From contig CANONT010000008.1 in the NCBI GenBank assembly GCA_947567695.1, positions 1 to 47,302 on the forward strand: a stretch of 47,302 nucleotides of DNA, written 5' to 3'. Below the pieces are notes generated by a model. That model had not been told where the DNA came from. It saw nothing but the letters and a program-made list of their open reading frames with translations, and made no database searches. A program made the translations under genes and the position numbers. How positions within the stretch are numbered: the stretch's first letter is position 1; each line of letters begins with the position of its first letter. Shown here piece after piece: positions 3,988-27,386 of this stretch. This DNA is from an uncultured Clostridium sp. (lineage in GTDB: Bacteria > Bacillota > Clostridia > TANB77 > CAG-508).

Positions 3988-4245
3988 ATAGAAAAAAACA
4001 AGAAAAAAGAAGAGTACATTTATACTTGCTATTAGAGAAAAGAAGTCCTAGGCTGAAAGCTTCTTTAGAAAAAGATAGATGGAAAGTAGCTTTTTTAGTT
4101 GATATTTTGAGAAATCTAATAATAGGAATATCCGTTTAAGCCACGTTAACAGCTAACTAAGATGTAATCTAAAAAAAGATTATAATTAAGGTGGTACCGT
4201 GAGAATATCAACTCGCCCTTATGTTATGTGTAGGGGCGAGTTTTT
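3988..4245 (+). promoter_or_regulatory. T-box leader (tRNA-sensing riboswitch), presumably tRNA-Val
   Basis: The conserved T-box sequence AAGGTGGTACCGTGAG lies at 4188-4203. It is followed by an intrinsic terminator: CTCGCCC near 4212, GGGGCGAG ending at 4240, then TTTTT. Stem I features appear at 4033-4080 (AGAGAAAAGAAG, then AGGCTGAAAGC). Uncharged tRNA would pair through its NCCA end with the TGGT in the antiterminator bulge (4192-4195), stabilising read-through. TGGT fits a discriminator base A, as in tRNA-Val. I could not place the specifier codon with certainty. The leader controls the small gene at 4317 and, through it, valS. Confidence 0.92.
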
Positions 4246-25686: not shown

Positions 25687-25698
25687 AAGAAAAATTGG

Positions 25699-25864
25699 CA
25701 ATGCTGTCAACTTAAGGTTTAGTCTATTATTTTTGCAACACCGCGTAAGCGACCAAACGAGCAAAGCGAGTGCGATTGGAGCAACCATCGATTATTAAAA
25801 TCGGAAGGTTGCGACACACAAGGTGTAAAAAAATAATAGACTAAACCTTAAGTTGACAGCATTG
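25699..25864. repeat. Long hairpin element, copy 1 of a core-sharing pair (jetC-jetD junction)
   Basis: A 36-base perfect stem starts at CAATGCTGTCAACTTAAGG (25699-25734) and is mirrored at 25829-25864. It encloses a core of about 95 bases with GCAACACCGCGTAAGCGACC, AGCAAAGCGAGTGCGATTGG and a GCAACC...GGTTGC stem. The core matches, in reverse orientation, the core of the hairpin at 27164-27355, but the outer arms of the two copies share no similarity. The GC content of the core is well above its surroundings. Confidence 0.9.
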
Positions 25865-25885
25865 GAAAAATAGGAGAGGAAACAA

Positions 25886-27142
25886 ATGGAAAACCTAGAA
25901 GAATGTATGAAATATTTTCAAGAAAGACCGTATCAAAGAATTTTTTACAAAATGAGGAAGAAATATGAATCTTATGGCAAATGGGAAGGAAATATTATGT
26001 TAGAAAATCCAACCCAAGAAGAAAAACAGGCATTAAGTGGATTTATGAAAGAAGATTACCATAAAAATAAAAGTATTACGATTTCGCTTAAAAAATTTGA
26101 AGCAAGATTACAAGAAACTAGGTTTTCTGCCATTCCTTTAAAGACAATTCTCGAAACTTATGATGGTAAACCATTGGTAAGTAAAAAAGCAAAAGAAGAA
26201 CAAGAAAGAAATGAAGAAGAACAGTTTTATCAAGAAATTTTACAGGAAAATAAAGACACACCAAGCTATTCTGTATTAGAAGGTTTGTGGCAAGATAAAG
26301 CCAATCATTTTTTTAAAAGGCATTATGGAAAAAATAAAGAAAATCTAAGAACGGCTATCCAACAAGCTTGTATTTGTTTTAATCAGTTACCAGAACAAAA
26401 AATGAAATTACCAGTATTTAGTGCCAATAGGATAAAATCGCCACATGGGTTGGATAGAAATACATTAACAGGTCAGATTTTTACAAGGCTATTGGCAGAA
26501 AATAGAAAACAAAAGGTGCCAAGAGATACAGAGGAATTAGCAGAATTATATTTTCAAAATAATTTGTTGGTAGATGATGTATCCAATATGGTTTTATGCA
26601 AAAATATAAGAGCCTATACTACAAAGGGGGAACATCTAGCTTGGAAGGGGTTTTGGGACGAAAAGGAAGCCATGCAAGCAACGTTGGAAAATCTGTCAAA
26701 AATAGTGGAAGTGAAAACAGATTATGAGTATGCACTGGTTATGGAAAATCCAGCTGTTTTTACAGCGATAGCAGATTGTTTAAAAGAAAAGAGAGTTCCT
26801 CTTGTGTGTACTTATGGACAAGTAAAGTTGTCAGGCATCGTATTGATTAAATTGTTAACGAAGTCATGTAAAACGATTTTTTATTCGGGCGATATGGATC
26901 CAGAGGGAATTCAGATTGCTGATAGGCTAAAGACTAGATTTCCCAATGCGATACAGTTGATTGGTTTTGATCCAGATACTTATTATGAGAATTTGTCACA
27001 GGTTACTCTTTCAGAGGAACGACTTCATAAGTTGGATAGCTTGCAAAGTGAGGAACTTCTTGCGATTGCTAAGATAGTGAAACAGTACAAAAGGGCTAGT
27101 TATGAGGAGTTGAAAATAGAAAAAATATGCACTATTATATAG
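25886..27142 (+). CDS. jetD: Wadjet type II nuclease JetD (TIGR02679 family, Toprim)
   Basis: 418 residues. JetD is the topoisomerase VI-like subunit that cuts DNA once JetABC has recognised a circular plasmid. The N-terminal half (CMKYFQERPYQRIFYKMRKK; LENPTQEEKQALSGF) fits TIGR02679. The C-terminal Toprim metal site shows Glu in VMENPAVF (near residue 286) and Asp-x-Asp in YSGDMDPEGIQIA (near 335). AGGAGAGGAAAC precedes ATG 25886. The gene is bracketed by two hairpins whose cores are inverted relative to each other. Confidence 0.92.
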   Translation: MENLEECMKYFQERPYQRIFYKMRKKYESYGKWEGNIMLENPTQEEKQALSGFMKEDYHKNKSITISLKKFEARLQETRFSAIPLKTILETYDGKPLVSKKAKEEQERNEEEQFYQEILQENKDTPSYSVLEGLWQDKANHFFKRHYGKNKENLRTAIQQACICFNQLPEQKMKLPVFSANRIKSPHGLDRNTLTGQIFTRLLAENRKQKVPRDTEELAELYFQNNLLVDDVSNMVLCKNIRAYTTKGEHLAWKGFWDEKEAMQATLENLSKIVEVKTDYEYALVMENPAVFTAIADCLKEKRVPLVCTYGQVKLSGIVLIKLLTKSCKTIFYSGDMDPEGIQIADRLKTRFPNAIQLIGFDPDTYYENLSQVTLSEERLHKLDSLQSEELLAIAKIVKQYKRASYEELKIEKICTII

Positions 27143-27163
27143 TAAAAATCAATATATAAATTT

Positions 27164-27355
27164 TTCAAGTTTCGACTTTTTGCCAGTGAGGGGTGTAATA
27201 TATCATTTTTTTACACTTTGTGTGTCGCAACCTACCCAATTAATTATTTATCTGTAGGTTGCTCCAATCGCACTCGCTTTACTCGTTTGGTCGCTTACGC
27301 AGTGTTGCAAAAATGATATATTACACCCCTCACTGGCAAAAAGTCGAAACTTGAA
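27164..27355. repeat. Long hairpin element, copy 2 of the core-sharing pair (after jetD)
   Basis: A 47-base perfect stem, TTCAAGTTTCGACTTTTTGC onward (27164-27210), is mirrored at 27309-27355. The core contains GTGTGTCGCAACCT, a CCTAC...GTAGG stem and GGTTGCTCCAATCGCACTCG followed by GTTTGGTCGCTTACGC. That core is the near-identical reverse complement of copy 1. It closes the Wadjet cluster and could terminate it, although no classic T tract follows the outer stem. Confidence 0.9.
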
Positions 27356-27386
27356 ATAAATTTAATTTTAACAGGAGAAAATTAGA

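Follow-up and report, generated by a model that had tools for sequence, protein, structure and literature searches.

Small dispersed hairpin elements with a conserved, putatively folded core and matched but variable arms in a family of Clostridia

In bacterial MITEs the ends are usually the conserved part and the interior is free, and in invertons and phase-variable promoters a segment between inverted repeats can invert. The two hairpins around jetD in a 47,302-nt stretch of Clostridia DNA (the window) share features with both. Like invertons they carry an apparently invertible segment between inverted repeats, but the arms are not conserved between lineages, and unlike in MITEs it is the loop or interior that is conserved family-wide, while most arms are variable. 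The layout is inverted compared to the usual mobile palindrome, with the loop conserved and the arms free. Like bacterial MITEs and intergenic palindromic repeats such as RUP, BOX and ERIC (see PMC3049150), the elements are short, dispersed, non-coding and mostly intergenic, with self-complementary ends and a target duplication. Intergenic hairpin repeats in a genus with Y1 transposases also recall the REP/REPIN sequences and their RAYT partners, but compared to the REPs as these sources present them our element is far longer, has a multi-stem core that is predicted to fold, generates target duplications and was not found beside Y1 genes (PMC2817692, PMC3733652, PMC3116915, PMC8266576). A further likeness is to template-switch mutation of inverted repeats, for which homogenisation of arms and inversion of the spacer (PMC8604942) as well as creation and maintenance of hairpins (PMC8794818) have been reported; the cases described in these two sources are yeast genes and RNA genes, and the present case is a mobile element that occurs in many copies. 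Neither the five core motifs nor the element had a recognised description in the literature searched, a coverage that excluded most subscription papers.

The hairpins around jetD and their family

Genes of the window match JetA2, JetB2, JetC2 and JetD2 of Wadjet. The first hairpin (W1) lies between jetC and jetD and the second (W2) between jetD and the next gene, so that no reading frame is broken. The features are:

25689..25698, no strand: W1 target duplication, left copy GAAAAATTGG, 9/10 identical to the right copy
25699..25734, + strand: W1 left arm, 36 nt, type B, 100% complementary to 25829-25864
25734..25830, predicted folded strand +, sense to jetD: W1 conserved core, 106.2 bits with the R1 model; the RNA fold of the + strand equals the consensus
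25829..25864, + strand: W1 right arm, 36 nt, complementary to the left arm
25865..25874, no strand: W1 target duplication, right copy GAAAAATAGG
25886..27142, + strand: jetD (JetD2, type II Wadjet), between W1 and W2, intact
27156..27163, no strand: W2 target duplication, left copy ATAAATTT
27164..27210, - strand: W2 arm, 47 nt, type A, common to 11 other copies in the genome
27209..27309, predicted folded strand -, antisense to jetD: W2 conserved core, 112.6 bits with the R1 model
27309..27355, - strand: W2 second arm, 47 nt, perfect complement
27356..27363, no strand: W2 target duplication, right copy ATAAATTT

The raw W2 arms (27163-27210/27309-27356) form 48 perfect pairs, or 47 (27164-27355) if the target duplication is excluded. 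A preliminary description of this DNA had reported perfectly self-complementary arms of 36 and 47 nt and a shared core in opposite orientation, and the arm coordinates and the two mutually inverted cores, 86% identical over 100 columns, bear this out. It had further stated that the arms of W1 and W2 have nothing in common, which is true of their outer parts only: counted outward from the core 14 of 18 positions agree, and of the next 18 only 6. Its suggestion that the jetD segment flips via the inverted cores found no support, since the arms match within either hairpin and both have a target duplication of their own; with these in register in both hairpins, no such inversion is likely to have been fixed. 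Relatives of jetD, present in 5 of the 97 genomes of the genus including the host's own, were considered as empty sites and discarded, because the other proteins are 44-47% identical and the gaps unalignable. In genome G063 an element (L174:1250-1349) is located 152 bp behind that genome's jetD and on the same strand, whereas W2 is on the other strand; both JetD loci found in element-bearing genomes carry the element nearby, which may be chance. A T-box leader (3992-4223) is the sole Rfam match of the window at gathering score.

W1 and W2 are members of a large dispersed family of small mobile elements, which is limited to one Clostridia family among the genomes searched. In the host genome (G000, 83% complete, 74 contigs) we read 20 copies of this non-coding element of roughly 130-270 bp, comprising 12 with type A arms as in W2, two with type B arms as in W1, about five of type C (both ends found in four, the fifth assigned by eye) and one that groups with no other. 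If up to three mismatches are allowed, the 39 inner nt of the W2 arm occur 20 times, compared to 0 for the same sequence read backwards. A search with the W2 element gave matches in 54 of the 97 genomes of the genus, and a core model matched 66 of 195 genomes of the host's family in 20 of 39 genera. Across the class only 4 of 291 genomes matched, all four from the host's family, although this and the other large searches used stricter filters by which weak matches were lost. The core pattern, which detects near-intact cores only, matched at least 113 stretches in public genomes, and among the matches listed (80 titles) all were uncultured Clostridia, Clostridium or Eubacteriales; one match was obtained in viral contigs.

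Insertion, arm matching and inversion of the core

Arms and core insert together, as concluded from an empty site without palindrome and from target duplications. For copy C36 of the host genome, the only clean empty site worked out, the corresponding positions in L147 and L158 (flanks 81-85% identical) are empty and hold no palindrome, while in the filled copy the target is repeated alongside with one mismatch. Target duplications of 8-11 bp with a score of at least 8, allowing a boundary shift of up to 6, were found for 21 of 81 long-arm copies compared to 4 of 150 swapped controls; two of the 21 calls (L109, L130) sit in a nested repeat and are not good duplications. The preliminary description had considered that the core was inserted into existing hairpins, in which case empty sites would already hold the outer palindrome. 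This does not apply to C36, but the route is possible for a nested class (L064, L103, L137, L130, L109), in which the core hairpin takes the place of the plain apical stem of L132 and L071. Its alternative of a mobility mechanism that copies flanking DNA as an inverted duplicate is not needed, and no case was seen. The nested copies belong to a second conserved, structured-looking repeat (GTAACTCCCAACTRCATAACAGACTGTAA ... AACAGTCTRTAATTTGTYGGTCCCCCCGAATTGTTAC; L132:2980-3111, L071:7882-8000, L064, L103, L137, L130 and L109), in some copies of which the first core, together with its arms, sits in place of the apical stem; the L132 copy had no Rfam match.

The arms vary between copies and are matched within them. 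Among 134 copies of the family the helix outside the core measures 5-110 bp (median ~33), compared to a median of 9 if left and right arms are swapped between copies; some swapped controls reach 45-48 bp because copies of the same type share arms. When species are compared, most arms show no resemblance, yet within a copy they pair over as much as 110 bp. The preliminary description had named further copies with the same arms as W1 or W2 as a finding that would refute its reading, and for W2 this is the case, as its type A arm recurs in 11 further copies of the host genome; across species, however, the arms do differ and remain self-complementary. In a set of 23 type A copies (12 of G000 and 11 of G024, without the coreless and other-interior elements bearing type A ends), mismatches within copies amounted to 24 of 1058 positions (2.3%) versus ~9% between copies, and the lowest mismatch total in 10,000 permutations of the right arms within genomes was 60. 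These copies show 48 two-sided identical departures from their genome consensus and 24 one-sided differences, both numbers counting copies and not independent events. Type A copies are conserved at their outer ends. By eye, L122:3900-4150 has a new self-complementary stretch of 45-65 nt with what remains of type A ends lying outside it, which looks like the addition of a new segment to each arm. In G051 and G079 (L277-L296) inverted arrays of a ~22-nt tandem unit (GGGGTCGGTCCCTTTTT...) border the core on either side, and the number of units varies between the species.

G051 and G079, with 22 and 25 core matches, are related genomes that share insertions. Of the 11 pairs that match in both flanks, 8 agree in core orientation and 3 have the core inverted between collinear flanks; pairs with one flank matched add one same and one inverted case. 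Together with three pairs from other genomes, all in the same orientation, this makes 14 two-flank shared insertions, 11 same and 3 inverted; a single species pair, with assemblies in 40-50 contigs, accounts for all of the inversions. Among the best 30 of 58 matches in six more genomes no shared insertion with short arms was found. The arm columns of the 14 shared insertions comprise 29 concerted changes, 28 in one arm and 47 others. The pair L280/L292 has 16 concerted and 2 one-arm columns, L147/L158 has 8 and 3, and the remaining twelve pairs have 5 and 23. Since the flanks of L147/L158 are just 76-78% identical, these may represent two separate insertions. Concerted change in place hence rests mainly on L280/L292, concerted change as such on the 23 type A copies, and gene conversion from another copy could mimic it.

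The inverted cases might also be assembly errors in hairpins, and the arms the ordinary terminal inverted repeats of a recently spread MITE. Perfect arms of 60 and 59 nt in L280/L292 and of 40 and 84 nt in L282/L320 (59-84 nt in L280, L292 and L320) are in line with such errors, the more so as the assemblies are likely short-read MAGs. The inversion between L278 and L043 argues against this explanation, because its perfect arms measure 17 and 40 nt, so that reads of ~49 and 72 nt would be long enough to bridge them and fix the orientation. From the arm lengths one inversion thus appears robust to assembly error and two less so. Recent spread alone would also not give low divergence within and high divergence between copies, and we regard this explanation as unlikely.

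Fold and strand of the core

The core follows the order GCGTAAGCGACCAAACGA - variable hairpin - GAGTGCGATTGGAGCAACY - variable hairpin - RGTTGCGACACACAAR and is closed by a short stem continuous with the arms. Alignment A1 contains 47 of the 112 core sequences, nine of which have a 3' loop one base shorter and are one column off in helix 1. Over its 21 proposed pairs 95.8% of the combinations are standard, compared to 86.8% in shuffles and 22-35% in slid controls, and two-sided changes occur in 10 of the 21 pairs (7.5 in shuffles; 10 was reached in 3 of 500). Core pairs include 29 G-T versus 6 A-C combinations, an excess which indicates that the strand shown is the folding strand. As DNA, this strand folds slightly more stably than its complement in both hairpins of the window (-17.8 versus -15.2 and -14.5 versus -13.3 kcal/mol). 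The minimum-energy RNA fold of W1 is the four-way junction of the consensus, and that of W2 differs. In Rfam the element had no match at gathering score (best chance match 10.1 bits, cut-off 40). Judged from covariation, the core is a strongly conserved predicted fold outside any Rfam family. L020, L021, L024, L026, L181 and L182 contain a further conserved module, CCACTGTAAC...ACAGTGG, which interrupts the core between GCGACCA and AAACGAG.

Among copies located between two frames of the same strand, 76 have the folded strand in antisense and 31 in sense (p 1.6e-5 if copies are taken as independent, which they are not fully). This count started from 186 copies and mechanical frames of at least 90 aa; 7 copies were inside frames, 29 had no frame within 700 bp on a side and 150 were classified. 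An earlier count of 134 copies, 8 of them inside frames, classified 109 as 62 antisense, 19 sense, 13 convergent and 15 divergent. The antisense excess speaks against the folded strand serving in cis as an mRNA structure, and is compatible with a function in mobility, with counter-selection of the sense orientation or with flipping that is unequal between the two states. A scan revealed 7 promoter-like sites versus 6.4 in shuffles and 1 terminator-like site versus 0.8. Among functional readings of the core we tentatively favour a structure that is recognised during mobilisation. It is rather doubtful that the element is a self-flipping cassette, i.e. a conserved structured RNA or single-stranded DNA module whose arms are matched by template switching and which is thereby repeatedly inverted to lie sense or antisense to the operon around it; if so, antisense copies would be in excess because the two states are under selection or flip unequally.

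A selected, transcribed long RNA hairpin, in which compensatory mutation restores lost arm pairs without arm-to-arm copying, would agree with the G-U pairs on one strand of the core and with the RNA fold of W1. We consider it improbable, because 26 of the 48 two-sided arm departures are transversions, which bypass a G-U intermediate, and because selection on single pairs is unlikely in arms of up to 110 bp; the antisense excess stands against it as well, and core inversion would be left unexplained. Hardly better placed is a process in which each transposition renews one arm with the other as template, through hairpin-primed synthesis from the basal stem of the core, so that new copies are perfect and their arms drift as one. 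Little mismatch within copies, high divergence between copies and the conserved closing stem adjoining the arms would be expected from it, but concerted change and core inversion at shared sites need no new transposition.

Mobilisation and proposed mechanism

An autonomous transposon with type A ends was not found in six genomes, nor an autonomous element in 20 stretches with type C ends, in both cases among fragmented assemblies. Single type A ends adjoin ordinary genes, identified by reading translations as DNA polymerase III and ribonuclease III. Type C ends include several short hairpins without core and many single ends, and one type C end adjoins a Y1 gene. Type A ends are also found around a different interior in L177, a 320-bp element, and on the coreless hairpins L183, L184 and L188, so that ends and core are separable. 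The interior of L177 (1268-1588) is possibly structured, and related single ends are present in L179 and L185.

That the element is REP-like, with its folded core recognised by a RAYT (Y1) transposase, is very improbable: Y1_Tnp (RAYT-like) genes are present in 88 of the 97 genus genomes and in L207 a Y1 gene is directly followed by a type C arm motif, but the core was not found beside Y1 genes, the core model giving 0 matches except one weak (18.4 bits) at 51 loci (L207 and 50 Y1 loci, of which 20 came from element-bearing genomes), and enzymes of this class are not expected to leave target duplications. By inspection, the core consensus shows neither a GTAG nor a CGTC tag.

We propose that the family is probably a MITE-like non-autonomous element that inserts whole, with arms homogenised by arm-to-arm copying, a core inverted by the same process and a fold that is needed. 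A core of ~85-100 nt, folding as a single strand, would be held in the loop of a long hairpin, and a transposase would insert the whole element with a short target duplication. One arm would then be copied from the other, most likely by template switching during replication, so that arms diverge between lineages yet remain self-complementary. Template switching could also invert the core inside its arms, and as the molecular process behind the observed arm and inversion pattern it would explain the puzzle raised by the preliminary description, namely arms that are unrelated between lineages and perfect within a copy. The core would stay conserved since the element depends on its fold, most likely for recognition during mobilisation.

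The finding exposes a putatively structured core outside Rfam that is confined to one Clostridia family among the genomes searched. It is also a warning that hairpins with two-sided "compensatory" changes have not necessarily been selected for their RNA structure. Since genomes hold many copies and species have insertions in common, events of arm-to-arm copying and of loop inversion can be tallied on an evolutionary time scale, and the element family would make template switching in bacteria directly measurable.
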